The notes beneath the pieces were generated by a model. The model ran no database searches. It saw only the letters and a program-made list of their open reading frames with translations, and was not told the origin of the DNA. Source: a virus. Taken from it: a stretch of 35,318 nt of DNA. The stretch covers positions 1-35,318 of IMG/VR virus record IMGVR_UViG_3300037558_003025; one strand, given 5' to 3'. Positions 3,531 to 12,536 of the stretch are shown here, one piece after another. Position 1 is the first letter of the stretch; each line of letters opens with the position of its first letter. A program made the translations under genes and the position numbers.

Positions 3531-4304
3531 ATGCTGGTCGATTTCAATCACGGATCCGGCTGTGTCTATGGCCGCGACGCCTCTGAACCGGAACCCCTCG
3601 GCGCGCGGATCAACGGCCGCATCGATGCCGCGCTGGAGGCCGAACGCGAGGGCCAACGCCCGCGCGACTATCTGGGCGCCAGCCGCATCGGCGAACCCTG
3701 CGCGCGGCGGCTGGTCTACGAGGTCACCCACACGCCGCCCGATCCCGGCAAGGATTTCGAGGGGCACGTTCTTCGCGTCTTCGCGGCCGGGCATGTCTTC
3801 GAGGATCTGGCAATCCGCTGGCTCCGGCAGGCCGGATTCGATCTGCGCACGCAGACGCAGGCTGGCGGCCAGTTCGGTTTCGAGACGGCGGGCGGGCGCA
3901 TTCGCGGCCATGTGGACGGCGTAATCGTCGGCGGCCCGGAGATCGGCCTCGAATGGCCTTTGCTCTGGGAGCACAAGGCGCTGAAAGCCTCGTCCTGGTC
4001 GGACACTGCGAAGAAAGGCGTGCAGCTCTCGAAGCCCGTCTATTTCGGCCAGATGCAGATCTACATGGCCTACATGGGCCTCGGGTCCGCGCTTTTCACG
4101 GCGCTGAACAAGGACACCTGCGAGCTCTACCACGAACATTTGCCGTTCGATCCGGCCGCCGCGCAGGCGCTGTCGGACAAGGCGGTCGACGTGCTGCGCG
4201 CCGCGGACGCGGGCGATCTTCTGCCCCGCATCGCGACCAGCCCGGACTTCTTCCTCTGCCGGTTCTGCCCTTTCGCAACCCGCTGCTGGGAGGACCGCGC
4301 ATGA
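3531..4304 (+). CDS. Cas4/RecB-like PD-(D/E)XK exonuclease with Fe-S cysteines
   Basis: 257 residues. The nuclease core shows Asp129 (GHVDG), Glu147-x-Lys149 (WEHK) and a following YFGQMQ helix with Gln174, the RecB motif set. Four cysteines, Cys57 in CARRLVY and Cys243, Cys246, Cys252 near the C-terminus, match the iron-sulphur pattern of Cas4 and AddB nucleases. In phages such enzymes process DNA ends for recombination and replication. There is no CRISPR array or other cas gene in the window, so an adaptation role is unlikely. The start at 3531 follows a GGGGGTGAGG ribosome-binding site, and the stop overlaps the helicase start by 4 nt, so the two may work as a nuclease-helicase pair. Confidence 0.8.
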   Translation: MLVDFNHGSGCVYGRDASEPEPLGARINGRIDAALEAEREGQRPRDYLGASRIGEPCARRLVYEVTHTPPDPGKDFEGHVLRVFAAGHVFEDLAIRWLRQAGFDLRTQTQAGGQFGFETAGGRIRGHVDGVIVGGPEIGLEWPLLWEHKALKASSWSDTAKKGVQLSKPVYFGQMQIYMAYMGLGSALFTALNKDTCELYHEHLPFDPAAAQALSDKAVDVLRAADAGDLLPRIATSPDFFLCRFCPFATRCWEDRA

Positions 4305-5584
4305 CCATCACCCTTTCCGATACCCAAGGCCGCGCCATCGCCGCGATCCGCGACTGGTTCGAGACGCGGCGGCACGACCAGCAGATCTTTCGGCTGTTCG
4401 GCTATGCCGGGACCGGCAAGACCACGATCACCGCCATGGCGATCGAGGCGCTGGGGCTCGAACCGATGACCCCGGGCGGGCTTGGCGGCGTGCTCTTCGC
4501 CGCCTTCACCGGCAAGGCGGCGCTCGTGATGACGCGCAAGGGAACGCCCGCGCAGACCATCCACAGCCTGATCTACCGGGTCTCGGAGGCGACGCCGGAA
4601 GAGATCGCGCGCGCGACCGAGGATCTGGCGGCGCTCCGGCGCGACCTGCCGCGCATGGGCCCGGCCGAGCGGGGTTTCGCAATGACGCGCATCGCCCAGC
4701 TCGAGTTGCGCCTCGAGGACATCCACCAGCCGAAGTTCCTGATCAACGAGCAGTCGATCCTGCGCGACGCGGACCTCCTGGTGCTCGACGAGGTGTCGAT
4801 GGTGGGCAAGGAGATGGCCCACGATCTCATGGCCTTCGGCAAGCCGATCCTCGTGCTGGGCGATCCGGGGCAGCTGCCGCCCGTGAAGGACACGGGCTTT
4901 TTCACCGAGACCGTGCCGGACGTGATGCTGACCGAGGTGCACCGCCAGGCGGGCGACAGCGCCATCCTGCGGCTCGCGACGCTGGCCCGTGAGGGGCTGC
5001 CGATCCCACCCGGCGCCCATGACGACCATGTCTGGAAGATGTCGCGCCACGAGGTCGGTCCTGCGCAGATGCTCCAGGGTGGCCAGGTGATCTGCGGCAC
5101 CAACGCGACGCGGCGCTGGCTGAACACCGCGATGAAGCGCGCGGCCGGGTTCGGTGCCGATTATCCGACCGGCCACGGCGAGAAGATCATCTGCCTCAAG
5201 AACCGCCACGATCTCGGGCTGATCAACGGCATGTTCCTGACCCTGACCGAGGTGCGGCAGGATCCGGACGACGCCTTCGCCTTCAGCGCCATGGTCGAGA
5301 CCGAGGACGGGGTGAGCCTCGGCGGGCGACAGAGTTTCTGGCGCGGCGAATATGCCGATCATGTCGCCTACGACCCCGAGCGCGGGCGACGGGAATGGCA
5401 GATCCGGCGCGGGTTGATCGAGTCCAGCTGGGGCTACGCCATCACCTGCCACAAGTCGCAGGGCTCGCAATGGGAGAACGTCGTCGTGTTCGACGACGGT
5501 TTCGGGCGCAGCGCCGCCGACCGCAACCGATGGCTCTACACCGCGATCACCCGGGCCGAGAAAGGTCTGGTGATCCTTGCTTGA
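4301..5584 (+). CDS. Superfamily 1B DNA helicase, RecD/Dda-like
   Basis: 427 residues with the helicase motifs in order: Walker A GYAGTGKT at residues 34-41, motif II LVLDEVSM near 159-166, motif III GDPGQLPPV near 187, a UvrD_C_2-type motif THKSQG-like (TCHKSQGSQWENVVVF) near 382, and motif VI LYTAITRA near 412. This order fits the 5'-3' RecD/Dda helicases. It probably unwinds DNA during recombination-linked replication together with the preceding nuclease. The ATG at 4301 overlaps the nuclease stop and has GGAGG upstream. The C-terminus overlaps the primase start by 8 nt. No domain appears missing. Confidence 0.88.
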   Translation: MTITLSDTQGRAIAAIRDWFETRRHDQQIFRLFGYAGTGKTTITAMAIEALGLEPMTPGGLGGVLFAAFTGKAALVMTRKGTPAQTIHSLIYRVSEATPEEIARATEDLAALRRDLPRMGPAERGFAMTRIAQLELRLEDIHQPKFLINEQSILRDADLLVLDEVSMVGKEMAHDLMAFGKPILVLGDPGQLPPVKDTGFFTETVPDVMLTEVHRQAGDSAILRLATLAREGLPIPPGAHDDHVWKMSRHEVGPAQMLQGGQVICGTNATRRWLNTAMKRAAGFGADYPTGHGEKIICLKNRHDLGLINGMFLTLTEVRQDPDDAFAFSAMVETEDGVSLGGRQSFWRGEYADHVAYDPERGRREWQIRRGLIESSWGYAITCHKSQGSQWENVVVFDDGFGRSAADRNRWLYTAITRAEKGLVILA

Positions 5585-8501
5585 CCTCAACGACGCCAAA
5601 CCGCTCGGCGGCGAGCCTCTGCGCTACGATCTCGACCTGGTGGTGGCGCGCCTTCGCGAGACCGCGGAAGTCTGGGTGCCACGCCTGTTTCCGCACGGGC
5701 GCAGGTCGGGCGACGAGTGGCGGCTCGCCAACATCCGGGGCGACGCGCCGCGCAACACAGGCTCCTGTGTCATCACCCTGCGCGGTGCGCATGCCGGCGA
5801 CTGGATCGATTTCGACGGCAATCAGGGCGGCGGCCCGATCAGCGCCATCGAGGAAGCGACCGGGCTCGACGGCCGAGCCCTGATCGTCGAGGCGGCCGCG
5901 ATCGCGGGCATCGCGCCCGGCGCGCCGGAACGTCGCGCGCCGCCGACGCCGCCCCCATTGAAGCGCGATCCCGCGCTCGAGATCGCGCACATCCTGACGG
6001 GTGCGGAGACGATCACGGGCTCTCCGGTCGCGCGGTATCTGACCGGACGGGGCCTGATGGTGCCCGAGGCCGCCGATCTGCTGTTTCACCCTGACCTGAC
6101 CCATTGGGAGACGAAGACCGGCTATCCGGCCATGCTTGGCCAGGTCCGCGACCGCGATGGCGCGGTCATCGGCCTGCACCGCAGCTACCTCGCCACCGAT
6201 GAGGTGGCGGTCACCAAGGCGCCCCTCGACAAGGCGAAGAAGATGCTCGGCCGGGTGGCTGGTGGCGCGGTGCGTCTCGCCGATCTCGGCGACGGCGATC
6301 GGCTTGGGCTTTCCGAAGGCATCGAGACCGGCCTCGCGGTGATGACCGCATGCCCCGATTTGCCGGTCTGGGCGACGTTGTCGACATCGGGCCTCGAACA
6401 GGTCGATCTGCCGCCAAGCGTCCCGCGCGTCGTGATCCTGGCCGACAACGATACCTCCGGGGCCGGTCTGCGGGCCGCCGAGGCCGCCGCCCGGCGCCTG
6501 CGCGCGCAAGGGCGCGACGTGGCCGTCGTCCTGCCGCCCGAGGAAGGCGAGGATTTCAACGACCTGCTGCTGCGCGAAGGACCCGAGGCTGTCGCCGCCC
6601 TGATCGCCGATGCGGAGGCCATCACCGAGGCCGAACCCACACTACTGATCGGGCAGCACCGGCCGGTCAACTATCAGGGCAGCGGCGAGGCCATCCCCAC
6701 CTTGCGCGCCGACGAGGGCGATCTCGCCCGCTCGGTCGAGCGGGTCTGGAGCCTGCTCATGGCCTCGAACCGGACACCATGGGTGTTCCGTTTCGCCGGG
6801 CAGCCGACATGGGTGGTGCCTGACGACGAGGGCCGTCCGGTCGCCACCGCGATTACCGAGGAACGCTTGCGTCACATGCTTGCGCGGCTGGCGCATTGGA
6901 AGAAGCTGAATGGCAAGGGCGAGCTGGTCGCGGCCCCGCCGCCGATCGCAGTGGTCAAATCCGTGCTGGCCACGCCCGATCCCGCGCTGCCCGTGCTGGT
7001 TGGCATCGTCAATACGCCCGTGTTCGGTCGCGGCGGCACGCTGCTGACCACGCCGGGATATCATCCCGACGCGCGGCTTCTCTATGCCCCGACGCCCGGA
7101 TTTATGGTGCCGACCATTCCGACCAAGCCGTCAGCCGCCGAGATCGCCGCCGCGCGCAATCTGCTATGCGAGGATCTGCTCGGCGACTTCCCCTTCGTCG
7201 GTCCCGCCGAGATGGCGCATGTGATCGCGCTGCTGCTGCTCGGCTTCCTGCGGGGCATGATCGATGGGCCGACGCCGCTGCACCTGATCGAGAAGCCCAG
7301 CCCCGGCTCCGGCGCCACGCTCATGGTCGATGCCGTGGCCACCATCCTTACCGGCTCGGGCGCGAGCGTCATGACCGAAGGGCGCGACGACGACGAATGG
7401 CGCAAGCGCGTCACCGCGAAGCTGCGCCAGATCCCCGCCATCGTGTTGATCGACAACCTGCGCGCCAAGCTCGACAGCTCCGCCGTTGCAGCCGCCCTGA
7501 CGGCGCCCTTCTGGGAGGACCGGATCCTCGGCGCATCGGAAATGGCGCGGCTGCCGATCCGCTGCCTCTGGATCGCCACCGGCAACAACCCCGAGTTCTC
7601 CAATGAGATGGCGCGCCGCCTCCTGCGCATCCGGCTCGATCCCCACGAGGAGCGCCCGTGGCAGCGCACCGGCTTCCGCCATCCCGATCTGATGACATGG
7701 GTGCGTGCCAACCGCCCCCGGCTGGTCGCCGCCTGCCTCACGCTATGCCAGGCGTGGATCGCCGCCGGAAAGCCGCGCGGGGCGCGCACTATCGGCTCCT
7801 TCGAGAACTGGGCGCATGTCGTCGGCGGCGTGCTCGAGGTCGCGGGTATTCCCGGCTTCCTCGGCAATCTCGACGAGATGATGGAGGCCTCCGACAGCGA
7901 GGGCGCGGGCTGGAGCGCCTTCATCGCCGCCTGGTGGGATCGTTTCGGAACCGCCGAGGTGGGCGCGGCCGACCTCTTCGACGTGGCCCTGTTCTGCGAT
8001 CCGGCGCCCCCCATCACCGGTCACACGGACCGCGCGCAGAAGACCAGCTTCGGGATCGCCATCAAGAAGATGCGGGACCGCGTGTTTGGCATCGGTGCGC
8101 GGAAGGTGCGCGTTGTCAAAGCCGGGATCGAACACAAGGCGACGCGCTGGAAACTTGAGGTCTGCGAGGGCCGTCCGTCCCGACGTGGGCCTGAACAACC
8201 TCAGGCTGGGGAACCTCGGCCCTGCGAGGGGAACCTCCAAACCGGAGGTTCCCCGGCTCAAGTGTCTGAGATCATTGGACGAGGGGAACCTGGGGAACCT
8301 GGGGAACCTCTTTCAACCCTTACGCACACGCGCGCGCACGCACATGCGAAGGATGATCCCGAAAAAGGTTCCCCAGGTTACCGAGGTTCCCTAAACCATT
8401 CGAGATCAGGGGGTTATGCCGGGGAACCTACAGGGGAACCTCCGATCCGAGGTTCCCAAGGTTCACCCATCCCCGACTGGCTACGGGAGCTCGATCCATG
8501 A
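5577..8501 (+). CDS. Primase-helicase (Toprim plus degenerate SF3/AAA+ ATPase) with iteron-coded tail
   Basis: 974 residues from a TTG at 5577 that overlaps the helicase stop. Residues 1-110 resemble a cysteine-less CHC2 primase-type zinc-binding fold (DWIDFDGNQGGG). Residues about 241-330 are a Toprim domain with Glu247/Glu250 (SEGIE) and Asp290/Asp292 (ADND), the catalytic centre for primer synthesis. Residues about 560-760 are an ATPase with a weak P-loop (PSPGSGATLMV, lacking the usual GK[ST]), Walker B AIVLIDN near 621 and a sensor ATGNN near 662. From about residue 871 the protein turns into low-complexity Gly/Glu/Pro and His/Ala stretches that simply translate the DNA repeats there. 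Role: priming and possibly unwinding at the origin. The degenerate P-loop leaves helicase activity uncertain. Confidence 0.85.
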   Translation: MLDLNDAKPLGGEPLRYDLDLVVARLRETAEVWVPRLFPHGRRSGDEWRLANIRGDAPRNTGSCVITLRGAHAGDWIDFDGNQGGGPISAIEEATGLDGRALIVEAAAIAGIAPGAPERRAPPTPPPLKRDPALEIAHILTGAETITGSPVARYLTGRGLMVPEAADLLFHPDLTHWETKTGYPAMLGQVRDRDGAVIGLHRSYLATDEVAVTKAPLDKAKKMLGRVAGGAVRLADLGDGDRLGLSEGIETGLAVMTACPDLPVWATLSTSGLEQVDLPPSVPRVVILADNDTSGAGLRAAEAAARRLRAQGRDVAVVLPPEEGEDFNDLLLREGPEAVAALIADAEAITEAEPTLLIGQHRPVNYQGSGEAIPTLRADEGDLARSVERVWSLLMASNRTPWVFRFAGQPTWVVPDDEGRPVATAITEERLRHMLARLAHWKKLNGKGELVAAPPPIAVVKSVLATPDPALPVLVGIVNTPVFGRGGTLLTTPGYHPDARLLYAPTPGFMVPTIPTKPSAAEIAAARNLLCEDLLGDFPFVGPAEMAHVIALLLLGFLRGMIDGPTPLHLIEKPSPGSGATLMVDAVATILTGSGASVMTEGRDDDEWRKRVTAKLRQIPAIVLIDNLRAKLDSSAVAAALTAPFWEDRILGASEMARLPIRCLWIATGNNPEFSNEMARRLLRIRLDPHEERPWQRTGFRHPDLMTWVRANRPRLVAACLTLCQAWIAAGKPRGARTIGSFENWAHVVGGVLEVAGIPGFLGNLDEMMEASDSEGAGWSAFIAAWWDRFGTAEVGAADLFDVALFCDPAPPITGHTDRAQKTSFGIAIKKMRDRVFGIGARKVRVVKAGIEHKATRWKLEVCEGRPSRRGPEQPQAGEPRPCEGNLQTGGSPAQVSEIIGRGEPGEPGEPLSTLTHTRAHAHAKDDPEKGSPGYRGSLNHSRSGGYAGEPTGEPPIRGSQGSPIPDWLRELDP
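8228..8254 (+). repeat. Perfect 11-bp inverted repeat within the iteron array
   Basis: GGGGAACCTCC (8228-8238) and its exact complement GGAGGTTCCCC (8244-8254) flank a 5-base AAACC spacer. Each arm contains one full iteron. The unit can form a cruciform or hairpin, or bind a dimeric initiator. No T-run follows, so it is not an intrinsic terminator. Confidence 0.7.
8321..8348 (+). other. 28-bp alternating pyrimidine-purine tract
   Basis: Bases 8321-8348 alternate strictly between pyrimidine and purine, mostly CG and CA steps. Such tracts favour left-handed Z-DNA under negative supercoiling. It separates the tandem iterons at 8283-8309 from the reverse-oriented iterons at 8366-8392 and codes for THTRAHAHA. 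A role as an unwinding or structural element of the origin is inferred only. Confidence 0.5.
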
Positions 8502-8557
8502 GCCCCGCATGCCCTGCCCATCACCCCATCGATCAGCAACCCGGAAAGGAGCCCATC

Positions 8558-9076
8558 ATGGCCCACGCATCTCTGACCCCGACACCCATGAGCGCCCCGT
8601 TCCCCGGCGTGCCGGTCGTCCTCGCCCTCGATCTCGGCACCACGACCGGCTGGGCTTTGCAGGCTGCGGACGGTCTGATCACCAGCGGCACCGTATCCTT
8701 CCGACCGAGCCGCTATGACGGCGGCGGCATGCGCTACCTGAGGTTCCGGGGCTGGCTCGAGCAACTGGCTCACGACGCTGGAGCCATCACCGCCATCCAT
8801 TTCGAGGAGGTGCGCAGACACGTCGGCACCGACGCGGCGCATGTCTATGGCGGGCTGCTCGCCACGCTGACGTCATGGGCGGAGACCGCGGGCGTCGCGT
8901 ATCAGGGCGTGCCTGTCGGCACCATCAAGCGCCACGCTACCGGCAAGGGCAACGCGAACAAGGACGCCATGATGGCGGCCGCCCGGGCGCGCGGCTTCTC
9001 GCCCGCCGACGACAACGAGGCCGACGCCATCGCGATCCTGCTCTGGGCGCTGGAGACCCGGGGAGGTGTGCAATGA
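8558..9076 (+). CDS. RuvC-like Holliday junction resolvase
   Basis: 172 residues from the ATG at 8558, chosen because AAAGGAG lies 6 bases upstream; an in-frame ATG at 8498 overlapping the primase stop would add 20 unfolded-looking residues. The RNase H-like fold shows the acidic centre: Asp25 in LALDLGTTTG, Glu83/Glu84 in HFEEV, and Asp152/Glu154/Asp156 in DDNEADA, with the KDAMM helix before it. Such phage resolvases cut branched recombination and replication intermediates before packaging. It closes the recombination-replication set, directly after the iteron array, and overlaps the next start by 4 nt. Confidence 0.85.
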   Translation: MAHASLTPTPMSAPFPGVPVVLALDLGTTTGWALQAADGLITSGTVSFRPSRYDGGGMRYLRFRGWLEQLAHDAGAITAIHFEEVRRHVGTDAAHVYGGLLATLTSWAETAGVAYQGVPVGTIKRHATGKGNANKDAMMAAARARGFSPADDNEADAIAILLWALETRGGVQ

Positions 9077-9715: not shown

Positions 9716-10105
9716 GGAAATTTTCGGGTGTACATCGCAGGACCTTACACATTTCGTCGAGGCCGTTAGAAAACGATTATGCTCGGGAGAGGAGCGCGCA
9801 GGCAGACGCCGCGCCGCTGGCTTCCCGGGTCCAGCGAAGGGTCCAGCCGGAGTCCGATGGGCTAACCCGTTGAGTTCTTGGTTCCTTCCTGGCGACATTC
9901 GTATGCTGGCGGGCGAAGCGCGCAATATCGCCAGCGTCAGGGTCGATTTTTTGGGAAGCCACCCCGGCGGGTATCCACCCGCGACCTGCTGAAAACCGCA
10001 ACAAAACAAACCTTTGGCACCGGACACGCCCGGTGGCCGTTGGACCCCTCGTGGAGTCCAGGCTGGCGGCTGGTGTCCGGAATCCACCCGATTGAGGCGA
10101 ACCGA
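9716..10105 (+). other. Gene-free leader between early operon and methyltransferases
   Basis: No convincing gene is found in 390 bases on either strand. The first 60 bases are less GC-rich and include TTAGAAAACGATTATGCT-like sequence that could be a promoter, without clear boxes. Further on are three successive stem-loops: 9967-9982 (GCGGGT/ACCCGC), 10018-10035 (CACCGG/CCGGTG) and an imperfect one at 10041-10060 (TGGAC/GTCCA). A GAGG ribosome-binding site at 10094-10097 serves the next gene. It may be a promoter region or a structured 5' leader; at this GC content some hairpins occur by chance. Confidence 0.45.
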
Positions 10106-11356
10106 ATGACCCTGAGCTTTGCACCGGATGCGATCGAGATGTGGCCGCTAGCCAAGCTCCAGCCCTACGCGAAGAACGCGAAGCTGCACGGTTCGGATCA
10201 GGTCGCGAAGATCGCCGCCAGCATGGCGGAGTTCGGCTGGACGGTTCCGTGCCTGGTCGCCGACGATGGCGAGTTGATCGCGGGACATGGCCGTGTGCTG
10301 GCCGCCACGCAGCTGGGGCTGACCGAGGCCCCAGTGATTGTGCTGGGACACCTGACCGAGGCGCAGCGTCGGGCGTACCGTATCGCGGACAACAAGCTGG
10401 CAGAAAGCCCATGGGACGAAGCGCTGCTGTCGGCCGAGCTGAACGATCTGCTGGCCGAGGACTACGACCTGTCGCTCATCGGGTTTGATGACGCTGAGCT
10501 TGAGGCCCTGTTGGCCGGTGAGGTCGACCCCGAAACCGCCTCCCGCGAGGGCGAGGACGATGTTCCAGAGGCCCCCGAGACCCCGATCAGTCGTCCCGGC
10601 GATCTCTGGGTGCTGGGCAAGCATCGGCTGCTCTGCGGGAACGCGACGGTGGCCACGGACGTCAAGCGTCTACTCGGCGATGTGACACCGCTGCTGATGG
10701 TCACTGATCCGCCCTATGGCGTCGAATACGATCCGGGCTGGCGCAACAAGGCGGGAGCTGCCGCGACCAAGCGCACCGGCAAGGTGCTGAATGATGACCG
10801 CGCGGATTGGCGCGAGGCCTGGGCGCTGTTCCCGGGTGACGTCGCTTATGTCTGGCACGGCGCGCTGCATGCGACGACGGTTGCGGAGAGCCTCGAAGCG
10901 TCTAGCTTCAACATCCGGTCCCAGATCATTTGGGCCAAGGATCGCCTCGTGCTGAGCCGCGGCGATTATCACTGGCAGCACGAACCCTGCCTCTACGCTG
11001 TGAAAAAAACCGGCAAGGGCCATTGGGCGGGCGACCGCAAGCAGACGACGCTCTGGCAAATCGCCAACAAAGATCAGGATGCGGAAACCGTGCACGGGAC
11101 CCAGAAGCCCGTCGAATGCATGCGTCGGCCAATTCTGAACAATTCCAGCCCCGGTCAGGCGGTCTACGAGCCCTTCATGGGATCCGGCACCACCCTGATC
11201 GCGGCCGAAACCACGGGACGAGTTTGCCTCGGGATCGAACTGAACCCGGCCTATGTCGATGTCGCCATCCAGCGATGGCAGCAGTTCACCGGTCAAGCGG
11301 CCGTGCTGGACGGGACTGGCCAGACCTTCGCCGATCTGACGGCCAACCCACGCTGA
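10106..11356 (+). CDS. ParB-like/DNA methyltransferase fusion (beta-class, N6-adenine or N4-cytosine)
   Basis: 416 residues; the ATG at 10106 follows GAGG by 8 bases. Residues 10-130 are a ParB/sulfiredoxin-type domain (LIAGHGRVLAA at 58-68, YRIADNKLAE at 91-100). Residues 165-400 are a class beta methyltransferase: motif IV DPPY at 201-204 precedes the SAM-binding FMGSGTT at 357-363, with TQKP at 332-335. It transfers a methyl group from SAM to adenine N6 or cytosine N4. Phages use such orphan enzymes to protect DNA from host restriction or to mark it. No restriction endonuclease is adjacent. It is followed after 4 bases by the C5 methyltransferase. Confidence 0.9.
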   Translation: MTLSFAPDAIEMWPLAKLQPYAKNAKLHGSDQVAKIAASMAEFGWTVPCLVADDGELIAGHGRVLAATQLGLTEAPVIVLGHLTEAQRRAYRIADNKLAESPWDEALLSAELNDLLAEDYDLSLIGFDDAELEALLAGEVDPETASREGEDDVPEAPETPISRPGDLWVLGKHRLLCGNATVATDVKRLLGDVTPLLMVTDPPYGVEYDPGWRNKAGAAATKRTGKVLNDDRADWREAWALFPGDVAYVWHGALHATTVAESLEASSFNIRSQIIWAKDRLVLSRGDYHWQHEPCLYAVKKTGKGHWAGDRKQTTLWQIANKDQDAETVHGTQKPVECMRRPILNNSSPGQAVYEPFMGSGTTLIAAETTGRVCLGIELNPAYVDVAIQRWQQFTGQAAVLDGTGQTFADLTANPR

Positions 11357-11360
11357 GGCG

Positions 11361-12536
11361 ATGCATGACCTGGCTTTACATCCCTCCGGGGGCGCTTCCG
11401 GAGACGGAGACCTGTTCGGTCTCTCGCTCTGTTCCGGCGCAGGCGGGCTCGACCTCGGGCTCACCATCGCCATGCCCGGATATCGAACTGTGGGCCATGT
11501 CGAACGGGAAACCTACGCCGCGGCCATTCTCGTGGCACGGATGGAAGAGGCGGCCCTGGATCCAGCGCCTGTCTGGGACGATGTTGCCAGCTTCGACGGC
11601 CGCCCGTGGCGCGGCGCGGTGGACATCGTCACTGCGGGCTATCCGTGCCAGCCGTTCTCCGTCGCGGGCAAACGCAGAGGCGCGGACGATCCGCGCCACC
11701 TCTGGCCGCATGTCGCCCGGATCATCGGCGAGGTCCAGCCGCCCTTCGTCTTCCTCGAGAATGTCGCTCATCATCTCCGCCTCGGATTCCCCGAAGTCGC
11801 CGGAGGGCTGGTCGGCATGGGCTACCGCCTTGCGGCGGGCCTCTTCACGGCGGCGGAAGTCGGTGCGCCGCACAAGCGCGAGCGGCTCTTCATCCTCGCC
11901 ATCCGCGAGCACGACCAACTGGCCGACCCCGCGCGCTTGCTCCGGGACCCGGTCGAGTGGCGGGAACCGGACCGAGATGCTCCGGCTCTGGCCGACGCCC
12001 CGCGCCAGCGCCAACGAGAACAGGCAGACGAAACCGACGCCGTCACAGGAAGCGGGCAAGCATGGGATGAATCTCGCGACGACGGCCGCGATGTGGCCAA
12101 CGCCACAGACCGACAGTTTCCGGAGCCGGGGCGGTGCCCGAAAGCACGAGAAGGGGTTGGACGGGATGGCCCGGGACTGGCCGACGCCGATGGCGACGGA
12201 CGGGAACAAGCCGAGCGCGGGCAATCGCAAATCGGCCGATCTGACCAGCGCCAGCCAGATGTGGATGACGCCAACGGCGCGGGATCACAAGGATGGGGCG
12301 ACGACATTGGCGAACACGCCGGTGAACGGCCTGCTTGGCCGCCAGGTCCTGATGACGCCGATGGCTGGGAGCGATACCTCCGAGCCGCGCCGGACCTTGA
12401 ACCCGCTGTTCGTCGAGGCGCTGATGGGCTGGCCCACCGGGTGGACCGCCTTCGGCTCTGCGGCAACGGCGTGGTCCCACTGGTTGCCGCGCATGCGCTC
12501 CGAACTCTTGCAGCTCAATTGCTGGCCGATGGATGA
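11361..12536 (+). CDS. C5-cytosine DNA methyltransferase
   Basis: 391 residues. Motif I LCSGAGGLDLG (23-33), motif IV GYPCQPFS with catalytic Cys96, motif VI ENV (133-135), motif VIII KRERLFIL (172-179) and motif X GNGVVPL (368-374) are all present, so the enzyme looks complete. Between motifs VIII and X lies a long Asp/Arg/Gly-rich segment (about 185-340) replacing an ordinary target-recognition domain. It methylates cytosine C5, probably as self-protection or part of a methylation programme with the upstream enzyme. The ATG has its GAGG only 2 bases upstream, which is short. The same DNA is open in the +1 frame over its whole length; see the alternative-frame entry. Confidence 0.88.
   Translation: MHDLALHPSGGASGDGDLFGLSLCSGAGGLDLGLTIAMPGYRTVGHVERETYAAAILVARMEEAALDPAPVWDDVASFDGRPWRGAVDIVTAGYPCQPFSVAGKRRGADDPRHLWPHVARIIGEVQPPFVFLENVAHHLRLGFPEVAGGLVGMGYRLAAGLFTAAEVGAPHKRERLFILAIREHDQLADPARLLRDPVEWREPDRDAPALADAPRQRQREQADETDAVTGSGQAWDESRDDGRDVANATDRQFPEPGRCPKAREGVGRDGPGLADADGDGREQAERGQSQIGRSDQRQPDVDDANGAGSQGWGDDIGEHAGERPAWPPGPDDADGWERYLRAAPDLEPAVRRGADGLAHRVDRLRLCGNGVVPLVAAHALRTLAAQLLADG

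Follow-up and report, generated by a model that had tools for sequence, protein, structure and literature searches.

The DNA analysed here, called the window throughout, is a 35,318-nt stretch of the tailed-phage IMG/VR record IMGVR_UViG_3300037558_003025, in which the structural genes (terminase, portal, major head, tape measure and tail) lie downstream of the replication genes. The gene of main interest encodes a 974-aa primase/AAA+ protein, the putative initiator, on the forward strand at 5577..8501, its TTG start having been assigned mechanically. Its neighbour is a gene for a Dda-like SF1 helicase (3953..5584, +), while a RuvC-like resolvase gene (8498..9076, +), given here for context only, overlaps its end. 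Near the replication genes, a ParB-like nuclease domain is fused to an N6/N4 DNA methyltransferase (9878-11356) with a C5 methyltransferase after it (11361-12536). The whole window was searched against Rfam and for tRNAs, with no matches.

The initiator gene encodes DUF7146 (residues 135-234, E 3.6e-27) and Toprim_3 (residues 243-337, E 2.1e-22) primase domains at 5979..6587 (+), an AAA+ region (6714..7886, +), a C-terminal winged-helix-like domain (residues 774-862; 7896..8162, +) and a tail of 113 residues. An AlphaFold2 model of residues 362-871 (pLDDT 83, pTM 0.78) predicts the AAA+ region followed by the winged-helix-like domain; in the latter, residues 818-830 form a helix, and residues 842-852 and 855-862 form strands. 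The solved structures nearest to the AAA+ part are the SaPI5 primase-helicase (Z 12.8, rmsd 5.8, 320 aligned residues) and PriRep1 (Z 12.3), with further structural matches to the pox D5/E5 helicases and NrS-1; searched by sequence against solved structures, the AAA+ and C-terminal part gave a single match, at E 0.08. Fold searches with the C-terminal domain alone yielded no confident match, the better of the weak ones (Foldseek E no better than 0.6, Z <=7.3) including assorted winged helices, and the domain is put forward as the iteron reader on the AlphaFold2 model together with the covariation described below. The P-loop (PGSGAT) has an alanine in place of the Walker A lysine, and Walker B is DN (window 7281-7337). 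The motif PG(S/T)GA(T/S) occurs in every member shown, with an alanine column that is invariant across 42 sequences, and the lysine is also absent from the distant homologues RpAliso and vir525; the DN of Walker B is likewise shared by the family and its distant homologues. Because the Walker A lysine is missing and Walker B is DN, helicase activity is doubtful and should not be assumed; going by these motifs, the AAA+ initiator may be ATPase-dead or atypical, and the missing lysine makes the Dda-like helicase a candidate unwinding partner.

The reading frame ends in 113 codons, translated as ...GEPGEPGEP..., that contain an array of the 9-mer GGGGAACCT at 8208-8467, comprising nine exact copies (seven forward, two reverse), three with one mismatch and a thirteenth with two mismatches (8375-8383). 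The 9-mer search placed exact iterons at 8208..8216 (iteron 1, +), 8228..8236 (iteron 2, +, in another reading frame and translated as GNL) and 8246..8254 (iteron 3, -), of which the second and third form a perfect 11-bp inverted pair, GGGGAACCTCC / GGAGGTTCCCC, at 8228-8254. An exact tandem triple with a 9-bp period (iterons 4-6, 8283..8309, +) forms the left flank of a central core, and iterons 7-9 (exact, two mismatches and one mismatch, respectively; 8366..8392, -) form its right flank. Beyond the core lie exact iterons 10 (8421..8429, +) and 11 (8433..8441, +) and iterons 12-13, with one mismatch apiece (8450..8467, -). The core itself is an alternating purine-pyrimidine tract of 28 nt (8321..8348, +), well ahead of every other alternating run in the window (runner-up 12 nt) and a candidate unwinding element; an AT-rich unwinding element is absent from the array, and this GC-rich tract stands in its place. 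Elsewhere in the 35 kb there are four scattered matches to GGGGAACCT at <=1 mismatch, none of them exact. Shuffled sequences gave a mean of 7.9 such matches per whole window, so that about 0.06 would be expected in the array stretch. The counts given in an earlier note on this DNA (nine exact and about four near copies in both orientations), as well as its three direct tandem copies and its perfect inverted pair, are all borne out by the sequence; the central alternating tract is an addition to what that note had listed.

The gene was found at 131 loci, mostly from Alphaproteobacteria or their phages; the relatives search with locus L086 as query retrieved that locus alone. Nearly all complete relatives have a tail of about 100-150 codons containing an array of like layout, and the arrangement >><>>> tract <<<>><< is common to more than 100 of them. 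The 9-mer itself switches in concert, every copy in either orientation changing together, with one type per array; about 30 distinct consensus sites were scored, among them GGGGAACCT, TGTGAACCT, TGTGAGCCT, GGGGAACGT, TGGGGACCT and CGTGAGGGT. In contigs whose array is of the KGKGAACCT type, this site is nearly confined to the array, stray single copies aside. The register of the CEV-type class (GTGTGAGG, e.g. L064, L066 and L131) is uncertain, and two of its members were excluded from the tree test described below. The longest alternating run averages 25 nt in 42 tails, against 8.7 in shuffles; in 12 of 13 long records (the exception being G013) the tract is by far the longest such run, measuring 28-30 nt in most and 23 in two, with the next longest at 11-15.

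Some individual loci merit separate mention. Five tails (L051, L053, L079, L109 and L110) contain mixed arrays of TGTGAGCCT and TGTGAACCT, and L051, with an intermediate residue pair (ERARKT), is perhaps mid-way through a specificity switch. The tail of L125 is short (43 codons) and most of its array is gone, reflecting either a real deletion or an assembly collapse of the repeats. Two related elements occur together in the genome of Jannaschia seosinensis (L089 and L092, same site type) and in one bin of a Roseomonas MAG (L119 and L122, different site types).

The low-complexity protein tail (8163..8498, +) is the translated array, and across relatives its peptide tracks the 9-mer type (GEP, CEP, GGP, WGP, CEV, GEC, GER and others). 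Iteron copies occupy two or three reading phases, and the phase of the central tract varies between relatives while the tract itself persists. Judged by this comparison, the conserved thing is the DNA and not the peptide, as the earlier note had proposed when it suggested selection on the DNA rather than the protein; the check it put forward, whether the repeat persists as its reading frame varies, has a positive outcome. That the GEP/GSP repeats are instead selected as protein can be given next to no weight: the tail is translated, its frame is open in nearly all relatives and its terminus, PDWLRELDP, is well conserved, but its residues change completely with the 9-mer type, the copies lie on both strands, and distant homologues stop straight after the C-terminal domain. 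A second alternative takes the inverted copies as hairpins in single-stranded DNA or RNA, serving as a priming site, as a cruciform for the RuvC-like resolvase or as mRNA structure. The strand does fold far more stably than shuffled sequence (-75.3 kcal/mol against a mean of -47.6, z -6.6), and the RuvC-like gene lies directly downstream; inverted iterons would fold in any case, however, and hairpin arms need only match their partners, yet all 12-13 copies are one 9-mer whose covariation with the winged-helix domain suits a duplex site. We consider such hairpins quite improbable as the explanation of the array.

Evidence on what reads the array comes from residues that change with the site. 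Between primases that are more than 94% identical and carry either the GGGGAACCT or the TGTGAACCT type, consistent differences fall mostly at residues 841-861. Co-change was tested on 78 distinct relatives, using a tree built from residues 1-770 and leaving out the iteron-coded tail columns. Changes fell on the same branch for position 5 with residue 855 (7/7), position 6 with 819 (9/9) and position 7 with 823 (9/11), and among the strongest associations were also position 3 with 854, 857 and 853, position 1 with 854 and 848, and position 8 with 813 and 824. The resulting pairings are specific: R/K at 819 goes with A6 and Q/H/N with G6; T at 823 with C7 and I/V with other bases; I/M at 827 with C8 and K/R with purines; H at 853 with G3 and R/Q with T3; A at 855 with A5 and T/S/V/L with other bases; and T1 with L852, or with R854 following R/Q853. 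In the AlphaFold2 model, residues 819, 823 and 827, which co-vary with positions 6, 7 and 8, are spaced i, i+4 and i+8 on one face of the predicted recognition helix (818-830; 8028..8066, +), and residues 852-855 lie at the wing tip (852-857; 8130..8147, +), where 852/854, 853 and 855 co-vary with positions 1, 3 and 5, respectively.

Most of these pairings were fixed in writing before further relatives were obtained, and the rules were slightly widened (N819, R827, and R854 for T1) once the new sequences had been seen, which limits the test. Applied to 40 new domains, the rules reached a per-position accuracy of 0.93-1.00, compared with 0.77, 0.44, 0.87, 0.69, 0.59 and 0.64 at positions 1, 3, 5, 6, 7 and 8 for prediction from the nearest relative by upstream region. 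All six variable positions were predicted correctly in 25 of 29 distinct held-out cases by the rules (the register of L268 having been corrected by hand) and in 3 of 29 by the nearest relative; pooled, the comparison stands at 54:3 in favour of the rules, with a p value of 4e-13 that serves only as a guide, the 29 cases being interrelated. The misses were L381 (H853 with T3) and, at position 8, L273, L278 and L267. When single columns were ranked, the assigned residue led the list, alone or in a tie, at positions 1, 3, 5, 7 and 8, with column 827 the best single predictor of position 8 in the held-out relatives; for position 6, residue 819 was best in training, but three other columns outdid it on the held-out set.

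Because rules based on its own residues predict the sites of held-out relatives, the primase itself very probably reads the sites of the array. The earlier note had also named proteins of the resolvase region as candidate binders, but there is no need to invoke them. The reader residues adjoin the array, at no more than about 80 bases from the first iteron for the wing and about 180 for the helix, so that hitchhiking contributes to the association. An explanation purely by linkage and gene conversion, with the 3' block exchanged, the repeats homogenised and the residues merely carried along, would draw on this proximity, and block exchange accounts for the sharpness of the boundary that the 95% clade shows at residue 841. 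Nevertheless, distinct site positions follow distinct residues along one helix face, columns between and around the assigned residues predict worse for most positions, and the same residue-base pairings recur in separate lineages and beat the closest relative on the held-out set, all of which makes linkage alone a most improbable account.

Altogether, we read the array as the replication origin of a tailed alphaproteobacterial phage, recognised by the product of the gene in which it lies, with a probability of about 0.83. The iteron-origin interpretation put forward in the earlier note gains support from the conserved layout and from the covariation of the 9-mer with the C-terminal domain of the primase, features of sequence that point to, rather than demonstrate, origin function. 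The check by cumulative GC skew that it had proposed holds in part: the minimum for the whole window lies beside the array, at 8802, and in six of 13 records it falls 0.3-0.7 kb away (318-688 bp in the five close records other than the window), these six representing two lineages, whereas in the remaining seven it lies kilobases off, at 2.4-4.9 kb in four and about 7 kb in three. A further homologue belongs to vir525 (L255, 4036-4371; BK063673.1), a Methanosarcinales-associated archaeal virus, in which the protein stops straight after the C-terminal domain; the intergenic region that follows has a 74% AT stretch with eight exact copies and one near copy of TGCGGGTAT around it, three more near copies lie in the 4 kb upstream, and this array is apparently an unannotated origin. 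The reading frame may thus have run into the origin in the phage group of the window.

Iterons commonly have control roles besides initiation. The sites might accordingly be bound by the initiator mainly for copy control, autoregulation or handcuffing, with the working origin elsewhere, a view that would suit an array devoid of an AT-rich element and the skew minima lying several kilobases off in seven of 13 records. We regard it as unlikely, although less so than the alternatives above: the array sits at the 3' end of the gene, where a promoter search restricted to sigma-70-like sites found none, the comparable array of vir525 flanks an AT-rich stretch, as in PICI origins (PMC6092414), and site copies are almost absent outside the array in contigs of that array type. 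A role as transcription operator was set aside, the search for sigma-70-like sites having found no promoter, and a partition site, a packaging site and a resolvase target were likewise considered and dropped.

If the array is an origin, the C-terminal winged helix of the initiator would bind the 9-bp sites, helix residues 819, 823 and 827 reading positions 6, 7 and 8 and the wing (852-855) reading positions 1-5, contacts that are suggested by the covariation. The opposed iteron triplets would face the central tract, where the initiator could assemble and open the duplex and where the Toprim domain would then prime, with unwinding provided by either the atypical AAA+ domain or the neighbouring Dda-like helicase. 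The tail peptide would be a by-product of an origin that lies within coding sequence, and that location also means that recombination would carry the DNA-reading domain and the origin together. Specificity could in this way diversify while cognate reader/origin pairs remain joined, a diversification to be expected if co-resident related phages must not fire each other's origins.

Several known systems share parts of this arrangement. In PICI/SaPI origins, two iteron sets surround a presumed AT-rich melting site 3' of the rep gene (PMC6092414). The replicon described here resembles this Pri-Rep-ori organisation in its primase and AAA+ Rep (sometimes fused in PICI), in an origin toward the 3' side of the gene and in two iteron sets flanking a presumed melting site; it differs in that the array lies inside the coding region rather than directly 3' of rep (being intergenic only in vir525), that the DNA between the iteron sets of the window is a GC-rich alternating tract and not AT-rich, and that the carrier, unlike the satellites, has its own terminase, portal, major head, tape measure and tail genes. 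The P4 alpha protein has a C-terminal winged helix and a GGTGAAC-like iteron. It combines primase, helicase and origin recognition in one polypeptide, according to the part of PMC8965321 that cites Ziegelin 1993. Primase and AAA+ are likewise found in the window protein, with a weak winged-helix match; unlike in P4 alpha, DUF7146/Toprim_3 stands in front, the Walker A lysine is absent and the iterons lie inside the gene. Origin repeats inside the gene of their binder are known from lambda O/ori-lambda, TP901-1 ORF13 and Tuc2009 Rep (PMC7466680; PMC8965321), and the window shares this placement, its binding protein being suggested by location and covariation. However, these three proteins are not primases and have few site types, ori-lambda has an AT-rich region, and no residue-to-base code for lambda O, TP901-1 or Tuc2009 is described in the literature consulted. 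The analogy with lambda gene O drawn in the earlier note is sound for location, while PICI/SaPI Pri-Rep-ori and P4 alpha are closer in architecture.

Co-variation itself has a precedent in the RepA_N proteins of PLE, Vibrio satellites whose DNA-binding domain varies together with the origin iterons and is exchanged with them as one module (PMC8263062); there, two modules with semi-palindromic iterons of about 30 bp and an intergenic origin are involved, whereas here about 30 types are compared at the resolution of single residues and bases. The phrog_10537 proteins of large alphaproteobacterial phages, together with vir525, have a homologous AAA+ and C-terminal domain that also lacks the lysine, but differ in having no translated tail, the array of vir525 being intergenic. 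No array was found within 500 bases downstream in RpAliso and Caulobacter phage C1. On balance, the best reading of the locus is a Pri-Rep/ori replicon that follows PICI/P4 logic and has its origin overprinted on the gene of its initiator; it is not filed under the PICI or P4 families because the AT-rich core, the location, the Walker A lysine and the satellite nature all fail to match. A literature search with most subscription journals outside its scope found the array undescribed, and it retrieved neither DUF7146 primases that have an internal origin nor a code of this kind; the combination of features, so large a number of site types and a code resolved to single residues were likewise absent from the literature searched. 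More tentatively, and with somewhat more doubt than confidence, the locus could represent a replicon class of its own, in which the initiator gene carries the origin overprinted on its 3' end, a Z-DNA-prone tract is opened instead of AT-rich DNA, the AAA+ domain lacks its lysine, and a winged-helix code separates dozens of mutually exclusive compatibility-group types.

Initiator-origin specificity is usually known for just one or two protein/site pairs. With about 30 natural site types in a shared frame, origin recognition would become legible position by position and testable by single substitutions. The finding also raises the questions of whether, in GC-rich genomes, an alternating purine-pyrimidine tract can do the work of an AT-rich unwinding element, and of whether DNA is unwound at all by an initiator that lacks the Walker A lysine. 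For the phages and prophages of Alphaproteobacteria, it would offer a route from sequence alone to their origins and compatibility groups.
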